Positions 1,915 to 35,884 of a DNA stretch of 35,898 bases are shown here, one piece after another (positions within the stretch are counted from its first letter, which is position 1; every line of letters begins with the position of its first letter). The notes beneath the pieces are model-generated. The model saw only the letters and a program-made list of their open reading frames with translations, was not told the origin of the DNA and searched no databases. Made by a program: the position numbers and the translations under genes. Where the stretch lies: positions 1-35,898 of the IMG/VR virus record IMGVR_UViG_3300034375_001028, one strand, 5' to 3'. The stretch is from a virus.

Positions 1915-1936
1915 GTATAGTTATACTCTATAGTAT
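1915..1936. promoter_or_regulatory. Dyad symmetry overlapping the leftward promoter, possible operator
   Basis: Two overlapping dyads lie across the -10 and predicted start of the leftward promoter: GTATA-GT-TATAC (1915-1926) and ATACT-CTAT-AGTAT (1923-1936). A regulator bound here would block leftward transcription. They could equally be chance palindromes in AT-rich DNA, and no regulator gene is recognised in the window. Confidence 0.3.
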
Positions 1937-1960
1937 ACCCGTAATATTAAGGTTTGTCAA
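1932..1960 (-). promoter_or_regulatory. Leftward sigma-70 promoter for terminase and late genes
   Basis: On the minus strand, TTGACA (1960-1955) and TATACT (1937-1932) are separated by exactly 17 nt, which is near-perfect sigma-70 consensus. The predicted start is near 1925, about 140 nt before the terminase small subunit. TACGGGTATA spans the spacer end and the -10 box, as it does in the opposing promoter. Confidence 0.75.
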
Positions 1961-1998: not shown

Positions 1999-2027
1999 TT
2001 GACAGATTGCGAATCTACGGGTATAAT
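1999..2027 (+). promoter_or_regulatory. Rightward early sigma-70 promoter
   Basis: TTGACA (1999-2004) and TATAAT (2022-2027) with a 17-nt spacer form a perfect sigma-70 consensus. The predicted start is near 2034. It fires away from the leftward promoter; the two -35 boxes are 38 nt apart. TACGGGTATA (2016-2025) overlaps the -10 box and is shared with the leftward promoter. Confidence 0.85.
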
Positions 2028-2042
2028 ATACATATAGCCCCC

Positions 2043-2101
2043 CGGGTTATATATAGATGATGGAGCATGGCTTATCATGCTTATCTATGTACCCGCTTTT
2101 T
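2043..2101 (+). terminator. Promoter-proximal terminator-like hairpin (attenuator or small RNA)
   Basis: Starting about 10 nt after the predicted start of the early promoter, three collinear helices fold into one long stem. CGGGT (2043-2047) pairs with ACCCG (2091-2095), ATAGAT (2053-2058) with ATCTAT (2083-2088), and AGCATG (2064-2069) with CATGCT (2076-2081), leaving a 6-nt loop. A TTTTT run (2097-2101) follows after one base. This has the form of an intrinsic terminator. It would yield an RNA of about 65-70 nt unless read through, so it may attenuate early transcription or define a small RNA. Confidence 0.55.
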
Positions 2102-2223
2102 AGCTCCTGCCTTTAAAGCCCTATGAAGCTGCGGACCTGTCTGGTTTACATGCTACACCCTCCAAAAATGTATAAGATTGAGTATATATCCCTAGTACCC
2201 CCTATGGCGACTTGCCCACCCCC

Positions 2224-2539
2224 TTGAAGTCTCTCAAGACTTCAAAAATTTCTAAGATTCTAAAGAATCTATCGAGCGCACACCCTTGAAAATCTCTAAA
2301 GATTTTACAGACTCTCTAGTTTACAAAACTAGGGCAAAGATTTTCGAGTCTTTAAAGCTACGCTTTACTTGGCAATCTCCAAAAATTTCAACGACTTACA
2401 AGCATTTCTAAGCTTCGCTTAAATCCACTCTTGAGACTTTTAAAGTCTCCCATAATTCTATCGCACACGAAATTTATTTATAATAAATTTTGAACAAATT
2501 TTAGACCTTTAAAGACTTTAAAATGTCTTTAAAGGTCTA
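2224..2539 (+). repeat. Array of mini-hairpins in the early leader; no gene seen
   Basis: The 1852-2614 gap has no convincing rightward ORF. Within it lies a chain of short perfect inverted repeats: TTGAAGTCT/AGACTTCAA (2224-2245), AGATTC/GAATCT (2255-2270), AAAATCT/AGATTTT (2289-2306), CTAGTTT/AAACTAG (2316-2332), TAAAGC/GCTTTA (2353-2367), TAAGC/GCTTA (2409-2421), a GAGACTTT/AAAGTCTC dyad (2433-2449), AAATTTATT/AATAAATTT (2470-2490), and a 15-bp stem TAGACCTTTAAAGAC with its complement (2502-2539). The arm sequences differ, so these are not copies of one repeat. They are independent foldbacks, many with 3-nt loops. Possible roles are leader RNA structure, RNase processing, an origin or a packaging site. 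The AT-rich 2450-2540 stretch is the likeliest place to melt. Confidence 0.7.
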
Positions 2540-2543
2540 CTAA

Positions 2544-2610
2544 GTTCTCCAAATGAAAAAGTTGTTAGTAAGTTTCTAACGAAACTAACAACTTTTACAT
2601 TTTGGAGAAC
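2544..2610 (+). promoter_or_regulatory. Long 5' UTR hairpin that pairs the ribosome-binding site (twin element 1)
   Basis: GTTCTCCAAA (2544-2553) pairs perfectly with TTTGGAGAAC (2601-2610). The helix continues with one bulge and one mismatch through AAAAGTTGTTAG. At its tip are GTTAG/CTAAC, a 4-nt TAAG bulge, TTTC/GAAA and a TAAC tetraloop. The GGAG Shine-Dalgarno of the gene starting at 2615 lies inside the stem, so translation should need the stem to be opened or cleaved. The tip architecture recurs at 3719-3774. Confidence 0.7.
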
Positions 2611-2614
2611 TAAT

Positions 2615-3052
2615 ATGGCTTCAGCAACTTTCAGCAAAATCGACAACAATCAAATTGCAACACAACGTCAAGTCTACGGAGTAGCTTGTCATTTCGCTAA
2701 TATAGCTAGTAAGACTCCTACGGAGAGATATGGCTTAACCAAAGTGTTCAATGCTATATTGAACAAACACTACAAGGATAGCGATAGCTATATGACTCAT
2801 GGCGAAGCCACTGAGTGGTTTGAATGGGATTGTGTTCCACCACAATTCATGTCTCTCATCAAGAAGCCAAAGGCTTCGACAGTTAAAAAGACTGCTAAGT
2901 CTTCGAAGAAATCTACCCCGAAGGGGAAGGCGACAGAAGTTAAATCTACTGCTAAGCCTACGGCTTCCGACAAGAAAATGCAGAAACTTGAGAAACGAGT
3001 AGATATACTCGACAGAAAGCTTGACAAAATCCTTGACGCTTTGACTATGTAA
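2615..3052 (+). CDS. Early basic protein with C-terminal coiled coil, unknown function
   Basis: I do not recognise this 145-residue protein. Residues 1-82 look globular (YGVACHFANIAS, TERYGLTKVFNAIL, EWFEWDCVPPQF). Residues 83-120 are a Lys/Ser/Thr/Ala-rich linker. The last 25 residues form a heptad-like coiled coil (KMQKLEKRVDILDRKLDKIL) that suggests oligomerisation. It is the first gene of the early operon and follows a hairpin that hides its Shine-Dalgarno. The linker DNA is itself built of short inverted repeats, for example GAAGCC/GGCTTC at 2863-2877 and CCCC/GGGG at 2916-2926, so its codon choice seems shaped by RNA or DNA folding. The basic linker would suit nucleic-acid binding, but that is only inference. 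Confidence 0.75.
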   Translation: MASATFSKIDNNQIATQRQVYGVACHFANIASKTPTERYGLTKVFNAILNKHYKDSDSYMTHGEATEWFEWDCVPPQFMSLIKKPKASTVKKTAKSSKKSTPKGKATEVKSTAKPTASDKKMQKLEKRVDILDRKLDKILDALTM

Positions 3053-3065
3053 ATAGTCAATTCGT

Positions 3066-3094
3066 TTGACTCGGACAAGGAAGTCCTGTATAAT
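3066..3094 (+). promoter_or_regulatory. Second early sigma-70 promoter
   Basis: TTGACT (3066-3071), a 17-nt spacer and TATAAT (3089-3094) lie just ahead of the gene at 3127. Dyads surround it: TTGACTAT/ATAGTCAA at 3041-3060 spans the previous stop codon, and GGAC/GTCC at 3073-3086 lies within the spacer. Confidence 0.7.
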
Positions 3095-6818: not shown

Positions 6819-6847
6819 TTGACAACAGCAATCTAAATCAGTATAAT
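6819..6847 (+). promoter_or_regulatory. Sigma-70 promoter for the replication genes
   Basis: TTGACA (6819-6824), a 17-nt spacer and TATAAT (6842-6847) form a perfect consensus 35 nt ahead of the SSB gene. It lacks the TACGGGTATA motif of the divergent pair, so it may be regulated differently. Confidence 0.85.
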
Positions 6848-6882: not shown

Positions 6883-7308
6883 ATGGCAATAGTAACAGGA
6901 ACAGCTTATTGGGCAAGTGTAACAACACCGAATACAACTTATGAACCCGTATACACGGTTAATCTAGTTGTTGATGATGATACTGCTAGTGACTTTGAGA
7001 AGCGTGGCTTCCCTACAAAAGATATGGACGAGGGTAAAGCTATCGTAATCAAGCGTAAAGTCAATGGACCTAATGGTATGGTTCGCTCTGCACCTAAGCT
7101 AGTAGACGGACAGAAGAACCCTATTGATGAGCGTGTAGGTAATGGCTCTAAGGTTAAGGTTCAGTACAAGGAGTGGGAGTCAGTATGGAAAGGCAAAACC
7201 TTTAAGGGCTTAGACTTCCAAGCAATGCAAGTGTTAGACTTAGTGTCTGTCGGTTCAGTTGACGGTGGTGAGTTTGACGTAGAGGACGACATGGGAGATG
7301 AACTATAA
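6883..7308 (+). CDS. Single-stranded DNA-binding protein (T7 gp2.5-like)
   Basis: A 141-residue predicted OB-fold protein. It opens with strands (GTAYWASVTTPN, YTVNLVVDDDTA), has basic loops (IVIKRKVNGPNG, KVKVQYKEW), a core FKGLDFQAMQVLDLV, and ends in a strongly acidic tail (EFDVEDDMGDEL). An acidic C-terminal tail that contacts polymerase and helicase is typical of replicative SSBs including T7 gp2.5. It lies just after a consensus promoter and ahead of primase-helicase and polymerase, close to the T7 order. It would coat lagging-strand DNA and aid recombination. The gene has a GGAG Shine-Dalgarno. Confidence 0.75.
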   Translation: MAIVTGTAYWASVTTPNTTYEPVYTVNLVVDDDTASDFEKRGFPTKDMDEGKAIVIKRKVNGPNGMVRSAPKLVDGQKNPIDERVGNGSKVKVQYKEWESVWKGKTFKGLDFQAMQVLDLVSVGSVDGGEFDVEDDMGDEL

Positions 7309-28492: not shown

Positions 28493-31400
28493 CTATACTG
28501 ATATGTTTAAAATGTCTTGTAGTTTACTTGTTGAAGTTGCAAGTTTTTCATTACTAATTGCAGTAGCATATAACTGTGCATTACGTTGCTCTTGGTTTTC
28601 ATACGCTTGTCTAAGATACGCAGCTTCGTCACGCAACTGTTGCCATAGTTGTGTTTGTTCCTGTGAAGTTAGATTAAACGCAATTTGAGCATTCTGTTGG
28701 TTAGCAGCGTTTTGAGCTGCAGTGTTAGCAGTATTTGCTTGTCGCCTCCATTGAATATTAGACTGCTCTACAGCCTGTGCGTTTGCAGCATTCCACTGGT
28801 CACGGGCAAGGTCTTGTTGCTCATTAAACTTCAGTAAGTCTGCTTCCATCTGAGCCATAATTGTTTGAGCTTGTTGGAAGTTACCTGCATTAATTGCTGC
28901 TTGACGGTTTCTTTCAGCAGCATTAAACTGATTTCTAGCTGACATAGCACTTACATTGTACTGTTCAATTTGCACTCCTAAGCTTGCCATGTATTGGTTA
29001 GCTTGTTGTTGATTAGCTGCATTAAACTGAGATGCAGCGTTTTCAGCTGCTACATCACTAATCATAGATTGTTGAGCCATTTGAGCATTTAACACAGCAA
29101 CTTGTTGTTTGTTTGCTAGGTTGCTTAAATCCATTTGCAAAAAGTTCTGAGCATTAGTAATAGCTAGTTTTGTTGCTTGGTCAGCTCCTGCCATGCTCAT
29201 ATTTGCAAACATTGTAGCATTTTGTATAGCTACTTGTTGTTCAGCATCAAACTCTTTAATAGTCATAGACTGCATAAATGCACTATTAGCTAACGCAACT
29301 TGTTGGTCAAAGTCAAACTGCTTCATATCTAAGTTAGCGTTTACTTGTGCATTAAACATAGCAGCTTGTTGCGAGTTAGACAGCTCAGCTAGTCCCATTT
29401 GTTGAGCTAGTTGTGCATTGCTTTGAGCTACAGCTATTTGCTTTTCATAGCGTTGTAGTTCTGCAGTATTTTCTGCAGTCATCTTAGCAGAATCAAATTG
29501 ATTCGTGTATGTAAGATTAGCAAGAGCTACACGTTCTTCTGTGCTAAGTCTAGCCATGTCTGCATTTAATCGTAACTGCTCATTAGTTGAAAGAAGCTGT
29601 GCAGCTGTAGTTAATTTTTGCAGTTCAAAACGATTAGCTTCTGTAAAGTTTGCAGCGTCTGCAGCAGCTTTTTCAGTTAAATTAGCAATGGTAATTTGTT
29701 GTTCATTGCTAAGATTAGCCATTTCCATTTGTTGCGTAAATGTAGCATTAGTCTTTTTAAAGTCAATTAAAGCATTTAGATTTGCTAAACGTACTTGATT
29801 CTCTGCAGTCATGTTTGCACGATTAGTAGCATTTAATTCTGTTAGTTCAGTTAGTTCTAACTTCAACGATGCGTCTAAATTAATTTCAGCAATACGTTGG
29901 TCTAACTCTGCTTGTCTAATATTACGGGCTACTTTATTATTTAGTTCAGTTAATCTAAATTGATTATCAGCTGTAAAGTTAGCAGCATCAGTAGCAGCTT
30001 TATCTTGTAACACCGCTAATTCAACTTGCTGCTCATTAGTAAGATTAGCCATATCCATTTGCTGTGCAAGCGTAGCATTTGTTTTACGCAAGTCTACAAG
30101 AGTCTGTAAGTTTACTAAACGCTCTTGATTTTCTACAGTCATTGTATCTTTAGCTGCATCATTTTGTTGCGTTAAGTTTTGTAGCTCTACTGATAAGCTT
30201 GCATTAAGGTTAGCTTTCTCAATGTCTTGGTCTAGCTCAGCTTGACGGATAATTGTAGCTAGTTCCGCATCGTACTTTTTAAGACGCATTGATTGTTCAG
30301 CATTTAAGTTATTTACAGATGCATCATTTAAAGCTTTTAAGTTTTCATAATCTCTTCGTGAGTTTTCACTAAACTCTGCTAAGGCTGCTTGTTGTTGCAT
30401 TTGTGCATCAGCAGCTGCTTTAGATTGAGCATTTTGCGTATTAACTAATGCTGTTTGCTGTTGTTGCTCTGAAGAAATTACAGCTGCTTGTTGGTCAAAT
30501 GTAGATTGTTTTACAGCAATCTCTTGAGCCATACGTGCAGTTTCAGAAGCTGCGAGTTGTCTATTCGCTAAATTACCTAGTCTAACTTGCATTACATTAT
30601 TAGCTGCAGCAATTTCAGCATTCTGTTCATTTTGTAAGTTTAAATTAGCTCGGTTCTGTAATGCTGTAGCGTTGCCCTGTGCAATAGGTAAAGCACTTTG
30701 AATAATAGCGTTAAACAAAGCATCTCGTCCTACAGTAGAAGCTGATAAACCTCTACGAGCCATAACTCCTTCTAATGCATCTACAGTTGGTCTAGCCCAT
30801 GCAGGAATATTGCCGTCCTCTATACCTGCAAGCAATACTTCCATTTGTGAAGATACTAATGCTTCTTTTGGAAGAGCTGCAATTTTTGCAGATACTTCAG
30901 GGTCAGGGTCAGTATCTAATTGAGCTTCAACAACTGCAGGGTCTTGAGCAATCGCAGCTGCTGTAGCTTCCGGAATATCTGCTACGACTTCTAGCATTTC
31001 AGAAGCGTTAAGAGTTCTATCTTCTGAAGTTGTTGCTTGCATTTGTGCAGCTTCGTATGTAGGAACACCGCCTATTTCAGCCGCAGAACCTTGAGGTGCA
31101 GTGCCTGTAATAGCTTCACGACCTTCTAAGTCTGTAGCAACGTCAGCATCTGAAATTACCGTAGCTTCTCCTGTAGCTGCGTCAGCTGTTTGAGCTGTAC
31201 GAGTAGCTGCTTTTGCGTATGCCGGTACATCTTCAATATCCGTAGTTAGCGCAGAAACACCTGTAGCAGTTCCAGTTTCGGCTGTAGCTGCTGTAGCTGT
31301 AGGAGCTTCTTCTCCTGCTAACTGAGCTGCTGTGCCTTGTGCTGCTGCAGCTGACTGAGCTATACGCTGTTTAGCTGTATCAAACTCAGGCAAGTTTTCA

Positions 31401-34400
31401 ATGTTTACGCCTCGCTCTTCAGCAATAGCTATAAGTTCTGCCAAGTCTTCAGTATTTAAAGTAGTAGCAGAATATGCTGTAGCTACGTCCGGTCCTTCAA
31501 CTTCTGCAATTCTTTGTGTTCCTGCTAAATCTAAATATTTAAGTCTAGCTTGTTCTGCTTGTGCGTATTCTAGATAAGATGGAACACGATTTAAAGAATC
31601 ATATAAGCCTTTGATGTGTCCTTCAGACGCACCGTTTTCTATAGCTAAAGGAATAACCATTTTAGATGCTTTATATAGTGGGTCCTCTTCCATAGCTGCT
31701 TTTGCAGCTTCTGCCGCAGCTTCTAACGCAACATATTCTGGAGTTTGTTTAGCTTTACCATAAGAAGTAGCTGCAATAGCTAAAGAGTTTTCTGATAAAG
31801 TTCCAGTAGCCGCTGTAGCTTGAGCAGCTGTAATATCTGCTTGGTTTACTGTAGCTGCTGTAGCTCCTGTAGCTGTTGGAGCAGTTGCTGTAGCTTCTGC
31901 AATTTGTGTAACGTCTGTCGCTGCTGTGCCTGTAACAGTATCTTCACCCACAGTAGAAGCAGTATACGATGAACCAGTCACATCAGTGTCAGGACCGGCA
32001 ACACTAGTAGGAGCACCTTGTTGTGATGTTGTTCCTAAGTTTCCTTGCGTTATAGTAGGAGCTGAAGTTGTTCCTGCTTGGTCTAAAGTTTGAACACTAT
32101 CGCCTTCTGTAATTGTCCCAGAAGCAACTGTTGTATCTATAGAGTCAGCTGATTGCGTTATAGTCGGAGTTGTTGGTGTAGTTAATGCTATACCTACAGG
32201 AGCGGCAGAAGAGTTGTATGTGCTAACTGTTGCTCCGGGTTCTCGTGTGGTGGTTTCTCTAGCCATAGTGTCTGCTTCCGTTGTGTTTTGAGCTATTGGT
32301 AAAGCTAAGCTGTATAATTCACTAGCTATTTCGTATGTTTTAAATCTAGCAAGTTCTGTTTGATAGGTTCTTAAAGATTCTTCACTAGCCCCATCTTGAA
32401 GAGGAGTAGGTTCATAAACTCTTTTAGGTGGCGTAGGTATTCTTGTATCCTTACCTTCAATAATTGGAAGATACTTATCATATACTTTATCTAAGTTTTC
32501 AACTTGAGCGTTGTATAATGCTACGTCTTGATTATATCTTAAAGTGTTGGTAACTCTATTAACTGCACCACCAGAGTCAATATTATAATTGTCTCTACTC
32601 GGTTTAATTAAGAAACTATAATCTCTTTCTGGTGTAGACGTTACATTTACTAAGATGTTTTCTTCTGGGATGTCTTCTTCTGTTAGTTCAGCTTCATCAG
32701 CTGCCGATTCTTCCGCAGGAGTTTCTGTTGCGGGTTGTTCAGGAAGGTCAGCTTCTTCTAAACCTGTGTCTTCTCCTGTTGCTTCTTCTTCCTGTTGGTC
32801 AAGAAGGCTGTCAGAAGGCTGTTCTGCTTCTTCTTCTTGTTGGTCAAGAATACTGTCAGTAGGGTCAGGTGTAGTAGGTGACATTACTGGTTCGTCAGTG
32901 TTTCCTGCTGCATACCAAGCACTTAATAAAGGGGCATATTGTTGGTCTATCATTCCTGTTTTTTTAACAGGTTTTGGGTCGCCTAGTTGAATATCTTGTG
33001 CACTTACCCAAGCATTTATTGATAATGTAAACGCATTAGACGGATAATTGGGGTCACGAAAATTGTTAGGGTTCGGCATATCACTGCCTTTAGTATATTC
33101 AGCTACTTGAAATACTTGAGGCTGTTCAGGTTCTGGCGTTGGTTCAGGTTGCGGTCTATTTTGCCATTTTGTCATGTAAGCATCAAAATTTTGCAAATAG
33201 CTTAATGGGCTATTTACAAACAAGCTTGCTGTTGGCATAGGAGTATCTGCAGTAGGCTCATAATTTTCAGCAGTAGGCATTTGACCTTCTGAGCTTTCAT
33301 AGTTATAAAACTCTTCTAAAGGTCGTCCAGAAGCATCTGTAGTTACAGGAGCTTCTGGAGTTTCTGGAGCTTGTTCAGGAGCTTCTGGGTCAGCTAAAAT
33401 ACTTTCTTCTTCTTCTTCTTGTTGCTCTTCAAATCCTGTAGCTCTTTTCCATTCTGCATAAACTTCTAATCTTTTATCTTCAGGATAATCCATTAATATA
33501 GGAGGATTTCCGGCATCCTCTGCTGTAAATGTAGGCATTACAAATTCAACAGGTTCAGGGTCTGGAGTTACTTGTCTGTCAGCGTCATAAGCTGCTCGTG
33601 CTATAGTATACAAAGCATTAGCATGATTGTAAATTTTTATTGCAGCCCCTCTCGACTGAGACAGAAAGCGATGATGATAAAAATCTTGTCTAATATAATC
33701 TTCTGGGTCAACAAAAGCCGGGTCCATGATTGCAGGACCGGGATTTACAGGAGGTGTCGGAGGCTCAGTAAAATTAGAACCGTTTACATATTTATCTCTT
33801 TGTTCATAAGCAGCTTCTAAATAAGGACGCATTTCATTTTGAGCAAAGTCAATATACTTATCATTACCCGTAGCTCCTGCTTCTAAAGGTGCAGGAGTAA
33901 TAGCATCAATATAACTATAATCTGGTGTGCTATCTCTAGTCACTTCAGGAACAGGTGCACCGTATTGAGGATGATATTTAGCGACATAAGGAGCACTGCC
34001 CCCGAAATTCATACCGCCAGTCAGACTTATCGCTAAGCTGTTTCCGGCTCTTATCCAGTTACCTAGTATTACCTCACCATCATAACCTCTATTAGCATAC
34101 TCTGCCCAGTCTATAGTATTAATGTCATGCCCTTCAACAAATGAAACAGGCAATGAGCCATCTCCACCGGCATCTAAAACTGTTAAACCGTTAGGATATG
34201 CTTCACCTACTTGAGGTAAACCTGCTAGCAAATCTGCTTGTCTTTGAGCCTCAGCGTCTGCTAATAGAGCTTCTTCTGCTTCTAATCGTTGCTGTTCTAA
34301 TTCTGCTTGACGCTGACGCTCTGCTTCTTCTTCTTCAGCTTTTTTAGCTGCTGCTTCTAATTCAGCTTGTTCTGCTTGACGCTGACGTTCTTTTTCTTCT

Positions 34401-35884
34401 GCTGCTGCTATATCAGCTAGTCGTTTAGCTTCTGCTTCTTCAGCTACTCGTTGTTCTTCTGCCGCTATATCAGCTAAACGCTTAGCTTCTGTTGCAGCTT
34501 CTTCAGCTTTACGTTGTTCTTCTGCCGCTATATCAGCTAAGCGTTGTTCCTCTGCTGCTATATCAGCTAAACGCTGAGCCTCCGCTGCAGCTTCTTCTTC
34601 TTCAGCTTTTTTAGCTGCTGCGGCTTCGGCTGCTTCATCGGCTAAACGTTGCGCTTCTTTTTCGTCAGCTACTCGTTGTTCTTCTGCAGCTATGTCAGCT
34701 AAACGTTGTTCTTCTGCAGCTATGTCAGCTAAACGTTGCGCTTCTGCTGCAGCTTCTTCAGCTTTACGTTGTTCTTCAGCTGCAGCTGCTTCTGCTTCTT
34801 CTTTTTTACGTTTTTCTTCTGCCGCTATATCAGCTAAGCGTTGAGCTTCAGCTTCTGCTTCTTCTTGCTTACGTTTTTCTTCTGCAGCTATATCAGCTAA
34901 ACGTTGAGCTTCTGCTTCTGCTTCTTCTTTTTTACGTTGTTCTTCAGCTAATCTAATTTGCTCTAAGCGTTCACGTTCTTTTCGTTGTTCTTCAGCCACA
35001 CGAGCTGCTTCTGCCAAACGCTCTTCTTCAGCCTTTCTTTCTGCTTCACGTTGTGCTCTTTGTTCTTCTAAAGCAATCCTAGCAGCTTCTTGTTGTTCAA
35101 ATCGCTCTACTTCTCCTTCATTATAAAGTGCTTGGTGTTCTGCCCAAAGAGAAAAGTCATCATAATGTCTTAATCTCACTAATGGGTCTTGTCCATCAAA
35201 AACTATGTCACCGTGCATATACCCAGGTATTGGAGATATTCCTTCTAGTGGAGGAAGGGGGTTTTCTGCTGTACCTAAAGTTTCATCAATTACAATATTG
35301 CCGTATTCATTTTTAACAACTTCTGATGAATCTCTTGCAATAACTACATCAGAACCAAAAGCTTTACCGGCTTTTTGTACCGCATTCCATCTAACTGCAT
35401 TAGCTATAAAATAATTTTCACTTTGAAAATCACTAGCGTTTGGAGGAGCGTCATTAACTTCATAGTAATTAAGAACAGTTTCAAGTTCTTTATTGTAGTT
35501 TTTAGGATTAAAGAATCTATTTCTCCAGTCTTCAGAATTAACAGTTTCTCGACTTAAATCAATCAATCCTTCAGTATCTAACCATGCTCCCATGTCTGCA
35601 ATTTCAGGCTCATACACATAAGTTTGAGCTGCTATTGCCGCTGCTTCTTCGTCACGTATACGTTTAAGCTCTTCTTGACGTTCTCTTTCAGCAGCTGCTT
35701 CAGCTTCCCTAGCTTCTCTTTCTTGTCTTTGTTTTTCTGATTCGCCTGCATCTTGTGCTGCTTTCCAGTTAGTCCAAGCTTCTTCAAATTTGTCAGCGCT
35801 TCCTGTAAAGTAAGTGCTAATTACAGGTTCTTGGTCCCCGTACTTAAAATTTGTTTTTAAACTTTGCGTTAGCAGTTCTGGCAT
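28493..35884 (-). CDS. Giant coiled-coil virion protein (2463 residues)
   Basis: One uninterrupted frame with four compositional zones. Residues 1-258 are mixed and acidic. Residues about 258-548 form a TolA-like Ala/Glu/Lys/Arg helix built on QRLADIAAEE units. Residues about 550-1200 are Pro/Glu/Asn-rich with short motifs such as DSLLDQQEEE. Residues about 1200-1700 are Ala/Thr-rich (ATATAPTATGAT-like) with linkers, and the remainder is a long Asn/Gln/Ala-rich helical region (NEQQVELAVL, TAENQVRLANL, QFNAANQQQANQYMASL) with two 110-residue repeats. This suits a very long fibrous or tape-measure-like virion component; I cannot say which. Its C-terminal pattern is one I recall from marine phages. 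The ATG at 35884 is preceded by only a weak GGT Shine-Dalgarno. Confidence 0.75.
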   Translation of the reverse strand: MPELLTQSLKTNFKYGDQEPVISTYFTGSADKFEEAWTNWKAAQDAGESEKQRQEREAREAEAAAERERQEELKRIRDEEAAAIAAQTYVYEPEIADMGAWLDTEGLIDLSRETVNSEDWRNRFFNPKNYNKELETVLNYYEVNDAPPNASDFQSENYFIANAVRWNAVQKAGKAFGSDVVIARDSSEVVKNEYGNIVIDETLGTAENPLPPLEGISPIPGYMHGDIVFDGQDPLVRLRHYDDFSLWAEHQALYNEGEVERFEQQEAARIALEEQRAQREAERKAEEERLAEAARVAEEQRKERERLEQIRLAEEQRKKEEAEAEAQRLADIAAEEKRKQEEAEAEAQRLADIAAEEKRKKEEAEAAAAEEQRKAEEAAAEAQRLADIAAEEQRLADIAAEEQRVADEKEAQRLADEAAEAAAAKKAEEEEAAAEAQRLADIAAEEQRLADIAAEEQRKAEEAATEAKRLADIAAEEQRVAEEAEAKRLADIAAAEEKERQRQAEQAELEAAAKKAEEEEAERQRQAELEQQRLEAEEALLADAEAQRQADLLAGLPQVGEAYPNGLTVLDAGGDGSLPVSFVEGHDINTIDWAEYANRGYDGEVILGNWIRAGNSLAISLTGGMNFGGSAPYVAKYHPQYGAPVPEVTRDSTPDYSYIDAITPAPLEAGATGNDKYIDFAQNEMRPYLEAAYEQRDKYVNGSNFTEPPTPPVNPGPAIMDPAFVDPEDYIRQDFYHHRFLSQSRGAAIKIYNHANALYTIARAAYDADRQVTPDPEPVEFVMPTFTAEDAGNPPILMDYPEDKRLEVYAEWKRATGFEEQQEEEEESILADPEAPEQAPETPEAPVTTDASGRPLEEFYNYESSEGQMPTAENYEPTADTPMPTASLFVNSPLSYLQNFDAYMTKWQNRPQPEPTPEPEQPQVFQVAEYTKGSDMPNPNNFRDPNYPSNAFTLSINAWVSAQDIQLGDPKPVKKTGMIDQQYAPLLSAWYAAGNTDEPVMSPTTPDPTDSILDQQEEEAEQPSDSLLDQQEEEATGEDTGLEEADLPEQPATETPAEESAADEAELTEEDIPEENILVNVTSTPERDYSFLIKPSRDNYNIDSGGAVNRVTNTLRYNQDVALYNAQVENLDKVYDKYLPIIEGKDTRIPTPPKRVYEPTPLQDGASEESLRTYQTELARFKTYEIASELYSLALPIAQNTTEADTMARETTTREPGATVSTYNSSAAPVGIALTTPTTPTITQSADSIDTTVASGTITEGDSVQTLDQAGTTSAPTITQGNLGTTSQQGAPTSVAGPDTDVTGSSYTASTVGEDTVTGTAATDVTQIAEATATAPTATGATAATVNQADITAAQATAATGTLSENSLAIAATSYGKAKQTPEYVALEAAAEAAKAAMEEDPLYKASKMVIPLAIENGASEGHIKGLYDSLNRVPSYLEYAQAEQARLKYLDLAGTQRIAEVEGPDVATAYSATTLNTEDLAELIAIAEERGVNIENLPEFDTAKQRIAQSAAAAQGTAAQLAGEEAPTATAATAETGTATGVSALTTDIEDVPAYAKAATRTAQTADAATGEATVISDADVATDLEGREAITGTAPQGSAAEIGGVPTYEAAQMQATTSEDRTLNASEMLEVVADIPEATAAAIAQDPAVVEAQLDTDPDPEVSAKIAALPKEALVSSQMEVLLAGIEDGNIPAWARPTVDALEGVMARRGLSASTVGRDALFNAIIQSALPIAQGNATALQNRANLNLQNEQNAEIAAANNVMQVRLGNLANRQLAASETARMAQEIAVKQSTFDQQAAVISSEQQQQTALVNTQNAQSKAAADAQMQQQAALAEFSENSRRDYENLKALNDASVNNLNAEQSMRLKKYDAELATIIRQAELDQDIEKANLNASLSVELQNLTQQNDAAKDTMTVENQERLVNLQTLVDLRKTNATLAQQMDMANLTNEQQVELAVLQDKAATDAANFTADNQFRLTELNNKVARNIRQAELDQRIAEINLDASLKLELTELTELNATNRANMTAENQVRLANLNALIDFKKTNATFTQQMEMANLSNEQQITIANLTEKAAADAANFTEANRFELQKLTTAAQLLSTNEQLRLNADMARLSTEERVALANLTYTNQFDSAKMTAENTAELQRYEKQIAVAQSNAQLAQQMGLAELSNSQQAAMFNAQVNANLDMKQFDFDQQVALANSAFMQSMTIKEFDAEQQVAIQNATMFANMSMAGADQATKLAITNAQNFLQMDLSNLANKQQVAVLNAQMAQQSMISDVAAENAASQFNAANQQQANQYMASLGVQIEQYNVSAMSARNQFNAAERNRQAAINAGNFQQAQTIMAQMEADLLKFNEQQDLARDQWNAANAQAVEQSNIQWRRQANTANTAAQNAANQQNAQIAFNLTSQEQTQLWQQLRDEAAYLRQAYENQEQRNAQLYATAISNEKLATSTSKLQDILNISV
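29590..30249 (-). repeat. Two degenerate 330-nt tandem units within the giant virion gene
   Basis: Each unit encodes about 110 residues that begin RQAELDQ(D/R)I, pass MT(V/A)ENQ.RL.NL and KTNAT.(A/T)QQM.MANL(T/S)NEQQ, and end AADAANFT...F.L (bounds approximate). The copies are aligned throughout without obvious large gaps. They reflect internal duplication of a helical segment. Confidence 0.75.
34240..35110 (-). repeat. Degenerate 30-nt tandem repeats coding a TolA-like helix
   Basis: Units of 30 nt encode decapeptides around QRLADIAAEE. Two copies are exact: 34674-34703 and 34704-34733. Elsewhere units vary and are separated by Glu/Ala/Lys insertions. The encoded helix is strongly charged and probably rod-like. 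Confidence 0.8.

Follow-up and report, generated by a model that had tools for sequence, protein, structure and literature searches.

The window analyzed here, the whole 35,898-base virus record, is a genome fragment whose left end cuts the gene for the large terminase subunit (terL). In protein searches, its TerL shares 62-66% and its DNA polymerase 49-50% identity with the counterparts from HTVC115P, HTVC103P and HTVC104P; the best matches of TerS are likewise found in these three phages, followed by the Roseobacter CRP phages and HMO-2011. Judged by these proteins, the window phage is a relative of the Pelagibacter phages HTVC103P/104P/115P. Among uncultured genomes, passages of PMC8528129 distinguish a group IV that is distantly related to HTVC103P-type phages and has unknown hosts; the combination given there for this group, an HTVC103P-like DNA polymerase with HMO-2011-like packaging genes, is the one that the best named matches of the window present. 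An open reading frame of 2463 aa (28493-35884, minus strand) had no PHROG match.

The subject of this analysis is the divergent switch between terS and the early operon (Table 1). A scan of the whole window for sigma-70 promoters yielded two sites with 12/12 matches to the consensus, at 1999 and at 6819, while 200 dinucleotide shuffles of the window contained on average 0.025 such sites and never more than one. The preliminary description had called the site at 1999 the strongest promoter in the window; it is the joint strongest, tied with the site at 6819, rather than the sole one. This second site (6819-6847, plus strand) is located directly upstream of an open reading frame at 6883 whose product resembles a gp2.5-like single-strand binding protein (phrog_112). 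Between 1999 and 3066, the promoter scan listed no further promoter-like site on the plus strand. The sequence TTGACT-17-TATAAT at 3066-3094 (plus strand), with GGACAAGGAAGTCC in its spacer, is promoter-like and is kept in several near relatives.

Relatives of the locus were collected from IMG/VR through gene 1 (seven viral loci) and through 80 of 360 terS matches, and dereplication left 34 leaders, 26 from the clade of the window (clade A) and eight from a more distant clade (clade B). A consensus promoter lies at most 420 nt upstream of the conserved core described below in 66 of 66 viral contexts having at least 400 nt of upstream sequence, and consensus promoters are also present at the early switch of HTVC103P, HTVC104P and HTVC115P. 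The divergent promoter facing terS (score of at least 10/12) was found in 80 of 83 distinct upstream regions. Across 46 promoter pairs, the six bases preceding the -10 box resemble each other more within one phage than across phages (178 matches, a number inflated by relatedness, versus a mean of 115 and a maximum of 154 in 2000 permutations), which suggests that a phage-specific regulator may be common to both divergent promoters.

Table 1. Features of the divergent early switch and of the leader, in window coordinates
Feature	Position	Strand	Observations
Divergent promoter towards terS	1932-1960	-	11/12; ACGGG before the -10 box in common with the plus-strand promoter
Consensus sigma-70 promoter, TTGACA-17-TATAAT	1999-2027	+	12/12 matches; drives the leader
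5'-terminal hairpin, AUAGCCC-CCC-GGGUUAU	2034-2050	+	Predicted by folding; 5' element in 62/66 core-bearing leaders
Three-segment hairpin	2043-2095	+	GGGU in common with the 5'-terminal hairpin, so the two are mutually exclusive
U-run, TTTTT	2097-2101	+	3' of the three-segment hairpin, within CTTTTTAGC; few relatives have it
Core domain, AAGCUGCGG..CUGGUUUACA..AAAAUGUAU..UAUAUAU..C-/G-run..AUGGC..CUUGCCC	2101-2228	+	Alignment A2, 31 sequences
Short hairpins	2224-2245, 2255-2270, 2289-2306, 2314-2334, 2336-2353	+	Within 2224-2353
Hairpin holding CUAGUUUACAAAACUAG	2314-2334	+	
Hairpin slots A-D	2346-2495 (about 2346-2370, 2398-2420, 2430-2452, 2462-2495)	+	Covarying arms
Long hairpin E	2502-2539	+	15 perfect pairs in the window, 11-22 in relatives
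SD hairpin, about 29 pairs	2543-2611	+	Gene 1 Shine-Dalgarno (GGAG) paired; z -7.8; covariation
Gene 1, 145-aa early protein	2615-3052	+	Heads the early operon; found at seven viral-contig loci

The leader, its hairpins and its conserved core

An untranslated stretch of about 580 nt (2034-2614) extends from the promoter to gene 1. Reading frames that start with ATG and span at least 60 aa first appear 537-842 nt past the -10 box in 50 of the 58 loci listed; the other eight possess an earlier frame of this size within the leader, at 29-170 nt. Of 72 distinct leaders, 51 (counting only those without N) had a located gene 1, at a distance of 550-853 nt from the promoter start. The product of gene 1 is 46-85% identical to that of 23 out of 25 relatives and 17-20% identical to that of the remaining two. 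It had no match among named phages, and its predicted structure (mean pLDDT 70.2) had none in the PDB at E <= 0.001.

This stretch is unusually rich in hairpins. The leader of the window contains 12, as compared to a mean of 2.8 and a maximum of 6 in 30 shuffled versions, and the number exceeded the shuffled maximum in all ten leaders tested. The fold of the entire leader is likewise more stable than that of its shuffles, with a z-score of -9.0 in the window and values between -3.8 and -18.0 across the seven leaders tested. The CUAGUUUAC hairpin recurs as an exact match in 79 viral stretches. The commonest loops of the leaders are UUA, UAA, ACA, UUUA and AUAAA, and GNRA or UUCG tetraloops are not enriched (5/188 versus 19/718 in shuffles). 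Protein sponges of the CsrB type carry GGA in their hairpin loops; GGA occurs in none of the 40 commonest loops, and we have dismissed this candidate function for the leaders tested. An AGACUU/AAGUCU hairpin is found several times per leader in relatives (e.g., L160, 1877-2265), where AGACTT and AAGTCT are 11-12 times commoner than in shuffles. As an operator array, these palindromes were rejected, because in the window they are restricted to 2227, 2434 and 16637 and because the arms vary among hairpins.

Near its 5' end, the leader contains a block of about 90 nt with conserved sequence, the core. A degenerate pattern located it in 107 viral stretches, which together with the loci collected earlier represent 70 distinct viral contexts; the distance from promoter to core amounts to 150-278 nt in a set of rows that includes duplicates. 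Within the otherwise conserved block, one segment (about 2190-2206 in the window) is a run of C in 38 of the 70 contexts and of G in the other 32. A covariance model of the core matched HTVC103P (E 4e-4) and HTVC104P (7e-3) but gave no match at the early switch of HTVC115P or HTVC033P. Further matches, in CRP-1, HMO-2011 and CRP-345 (one of eight further regions), are weak, since CRP-1 also possesses a match of similar score on the opposite strand. Four matches in genome contigs (Spirochaetales, Clostridiaceae and two from Pontibacillus) were discarded as chance; their scores follow from the way in which the contigs were chosen, and the promoter was present in none of the three with enough upstream sequence.

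HMO-2011 has 15 hairpins compared to 5.4 in shuffles at the corresponding site, whereas HTVC103P (4 versus 5.8) and HTVC115P (5 versus 4.3) show no such enrichment. By these comparisons, promoter and core extend to more distant phages than the hairpin array does. At the early switch, the record ends of the Roseobacter phages CRP-2, CRP-9, CRP-13 and CRP-345 (L249, L251, L252 and L255) lack annotated genes over 880-1255 nt, and these stretches fold more stably than their shuffles (z -3.0 to -9.1).

Covarying arms, wobble pairs and the Shine-Dalgarno hairpin

In an alignment of 25 leaders, slots A-E contain 5, 7, 1, 9 and 8 distinct inner arms, respectively, with complementarity kept throughout, and the stems in these slots are longer than in shuffled slots. 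Hairpin E was analyzed in 18 of the 26 clade-A leaders: 87.5% of the cells are paired, changes on both sides affect 11 of 18 pairs, and the covariation score of 0.400 (0.142 in shuffles) is held down by four rows of the window group that stand one column off register. None of 500 shuffles matched either the paired cells or the covariation score, and slid versions were 30-56% paired; the number of further pair types was no better than in shuffles (292/500). For the SD hairpin (MAFFT alignment A3; 17 of 26 clade-A leaders given, 14 distinct), 97.4% of the cells are paired and both sides have changed in 11 of 14 pairs; again no shuffle out of 500 was equal, and slid versions reached 40-62%. A covariation test against a tree-based null on the 25-leader alignment returned four significant column pairs, two of which are true base pairs (2357-2363 and 2433-2449). 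This test is limited in power or by the alignment, and since its outcome is weak, the statistical case is carried mainly by the two long hairpins and by the density of hairpins. These comparisons show that the predicted leader is conserved as a chain of hairpins with co-changing arms, and that both its 5'-terminal hairpin and the sequence of its core are conserved as well.

Palindromes with co-varying arms might also serve at the level of DNA, as a transcription-coupled origin of replication or another control site made up of the promoter, an AT-rich core with its G/C-run, and palindromes bound by a phage protein. A primase-helicase and a family A DNA polymerase are among the replication genes of the window, and the divergent switch lies where the skew turns, an observation that is confounded with gene direction. 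The exchange of C-run and G-run is strand-symmetric and is not accounted for by a reading in terms of RNA alone, and the core reaches phages that lack the hairpin array. The palindrome arms, however, vary among phages while their pairing is kept, and the mismatches that are tolerated in them favor one strand. In 282 stems from 34 leaders, 51 G-U pairs were counted versus 23 A-C mismatches, whereas base composition predicts fewer G-U (a ratio of 0.72); by leader, 18 favor G-U, three favor A-C, and 13 tie. This bias points to RNA transcribed from the plus strand. The enclosure of the Shine-Dalgarno sequence within the last hairpin likewise speaks against a DNA-level function, which we consider unlikely.

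The last 88 nt of the leader form 27-36 pairs in all 26 clade-A leaders (z -6.0 to -11.7), and the Shine-Dalgarno motif of gene 1 is fully paired in 21 of these leaders, three quarters paired in one and unpaired in four. Folding and covariation thus show that the last predicted hairpin of the leader pairs the gene 1 Shine-Dalgarno sequence in the clade of the window. In clade B, this hairpin is absent from all eight leaders (z +0.4 to -2.6), and in five of them the promoter-like sequence TTGACA-N17-TA(G/A)CTT (9/12) is found 84-96 nt upstream of gene 1; none of the 26 clade-A leaders possesses such a gene-1-proximal site at a score of 9/12. We infer that the SD hairpin and a promoter of its own are two ways of separating the leader RNA from the gene 1 message.

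The promoter-proximal hairpin and its U-run

A consensus promoter followed at once by a three-segment hairpin and a U-run was the starting observation of the preliminary description, and this arrangement is present at 1999-2101 as described. The hairpin is composed of the segments CGGGT/ACCCG (2043-2047 with 2091-2095), ATAGAT/ATCTAT (2053-2058 with 2083-2088) and AGCATG/CATGCT (2064-2069 with 2076-2081); if, as we presume, transcription starts near 2034, TTTTT would occupy positions +64 to +68. The first 72 nt fold with a z-score of -2.65, and two of 200 shuffles were equally stable. In the fold of lowest energy, the CGGGT/ACCCG segment is left open, and a generic terminator scan of the window did not list the three-segment hairpin.

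Such an element could act as an attenuator. In this case, the first hairpin would be an intrinsic terminator in balance with the 5'-terminal hairpin, and read-through into the early operon would be set by a factor from the host or the phage. The two folds that compete for GGGU are nearly balanced (-22.3 kcal/mol with the 5'-terminal hairpin versus -21.7 kcal/mol with the terminator; pairing probabilities of 0.71 and 0.29), the terminator fold is the one of lowest energy when the transcript has reached 64 nt, and the U-run follows. The relatives weigh against such a design. The promoter was found in 76 sequences (49 distinct over 140 nt) among the window and the loci derived from 80 of the 360 terS matches, and nearly all of these promoters lead into a TAAGCCC-NNN-GGGGTTA-type 5' element. 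Of 72 distinct leaders, by contrast, 9 have TTTTT between +35 and +90 and 17 have TTTT; near relatives have CGCTTCT or CGCTTTC at the position of the U-run, and the three-segment hairpin is missing altogether in several groups. Because hairpin and U-run are so poorly kept, an obligatory terminator is unlikely as a general design. Moreover, a conserved leader and gene 1 follow, with no other promoter-like site listed on the plus strand between 1999 and 3066, so the polymerase should read through at least part of the time. The version of the hairpin in the window may thus at most attenuate transcription; a part-time attenuator is possible in its subclade because the two folds are nearly balanced, although as the main explanation of the locus we regard attenuation as quite improbable.

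Termination at the U-run would release a short, abundant RNA of 65-70 nt, possibly a decoy. The stability with which the first 72 nt fold speaks for such a product. This product finds no support as the main transcript: the U-run is confined to 9 of 72 leaders, the three-segment hairpin varies in sequence and even in presence, and downstream of it lie about 515 nt of conserved, covarying and structured RNA as well as gene 1. Nor did the suggested decoy function hold in the form of an anti-Shine-Dalgarno sequence, since CCUCC, the ribosome-binding-site decoy motif, is not enriched in the whole leader (39 observed versus 39.1 expected); CTCC alone occurs 184 times versus 118 expected. A short RNA or decoy is therefore very unlikely to explain the locus. 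Equally hard to credit is the notion that the palindromes are by-products of mutational strand switching without a selected RNA function: the long stems are indeed nearly perfect, yet the leaders agree in the position and number of their hairpins, the tolerated wobble pairs show a strand bias, and the Shine-Dalgarno sequence has been taken into the last hairpin.

A proposed structured early leader RNA and its comparison with known systems

The evidence presented here argues, as the more likely reading, for an early leader RNA that is conserved and structured, that serves as a gate on gene 1, and that is probably released by cleavage and may then have an independent function. In the mechanism that we propose, the promoter would start an untranslated leader RNA of about 580 nt at about 2034, host RNA polymerase would pass the first hairpin, and the 5'-terminal hairpin would shield the end of the RNA against decay. 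RNase III might then cleave hairpin E and the SD hairpin, or a phage factor might open them; either event would free the start of gene 1 and release the leader as a separate stable RNA. In clade B, the promoter-like site that five of eight leaders carry before gene 1, together with the missing SD hairpin, fits a need to hold the leader RNA separate from the message of gene 1.

A broader proposal, which we put forward tentatively and consider rather doubtful as yet, is that the leaders constitute a previously unrecognized class of large, structured phage RNAs. Such RNAs, about 515-820 nt in length, would be made early from a perfect host-type promoter; a cleavable SD hairpin in one clade and a separate promoter in another would hold them separate from the message of gene 1. 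Acting in trans, they would serve uncultured marine relatives of the SAR11 phages HTVC103P/104P/115P as a scaffold, as a decoy or in host takeover. Phages of this kind may thus carry a large, previously undescribed RNA device. A separately acting large RNA, if true, would be more surprising than the gating of gene 1, and an RNA at the head of the early operon under strong selection for structure would point to RNA-based early control in phages whose nearest isolates infect SAR11 bacteria. That an early promoter feeds an RNA with regulatory structure, as first proposed, is borne out by the conserved leader; the observation was sound and its interpretation too small. A promoter and a hairpin noticed in a single genome can be the edge of a far larger RNA.

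The long RNase III stem in the phage lambda N leader lies by the Shine-Dalgarno sequence of the first early gene, and its cleavage raises expression. The long stem of the window similarly takes in the Shine-Dalgarno sequence of gene 1 and is predicted to be suited to cleavage, but no sequence relation to the lambda leader was seen, and the window has many more hairpins.

With the HTVC103P-type and HMO-2011-type phages, the window has the divergent early switch in common, and the core motif is recognizable in them; it differs from HTVC103P and HTVC115P in the hairpin array, for which these two show no enrichment. Neither near nor distant nucleotide searches with the leaders of the window and of two relatives produced a match in named phages, and no title or abstract start that we searched reported a leader RNA of this kind. 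A term search of the main text of PMC9038755 and PMC8528129 did not return "promoter", "noncoding" or "intergenic"; passages of PMC10504331 mention promoters for the phage described there, and in the searched passages of these three articles an RNA feature of this kind is absent. Transcriptomes of two other pelagiphages are the subject of PMC12753301. No Rfam family, GOLLD and ROOL included, exceeded the gathering threshold in the window; matches below this threshold, mostly miRNA and snoRNA models scattered on long hairpins, were set aside as chance.

The put RNA of phage HK022 (PMC9378689) is a structured element with which an early phage transcript begins, and it acts on RNA polymerase to suppress pausing and termination. 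The window resembles it in having two stem-loops in about 70 nt after an early promoter, but its leader is far longer, and the second stem-loop is missing in several groups of relatives. GOLLD and ROOL are phage-encoded RNAs of about 600-850 nt with many helices and of unknown function, as outlined in passages of PMC12286853. The leader (2034-2614) shares with them the character of a large phage noncoding RNA with extensive covarying structure, a likeness to be read with the weak outcome of the strict tree-null test. GOLLD and ROOL are often located near tRNA islands, whereas the window holds no tRNA genes and no Rfam match, and its RNA is an early 5' leader that is composed mostly of short independent hairpins.
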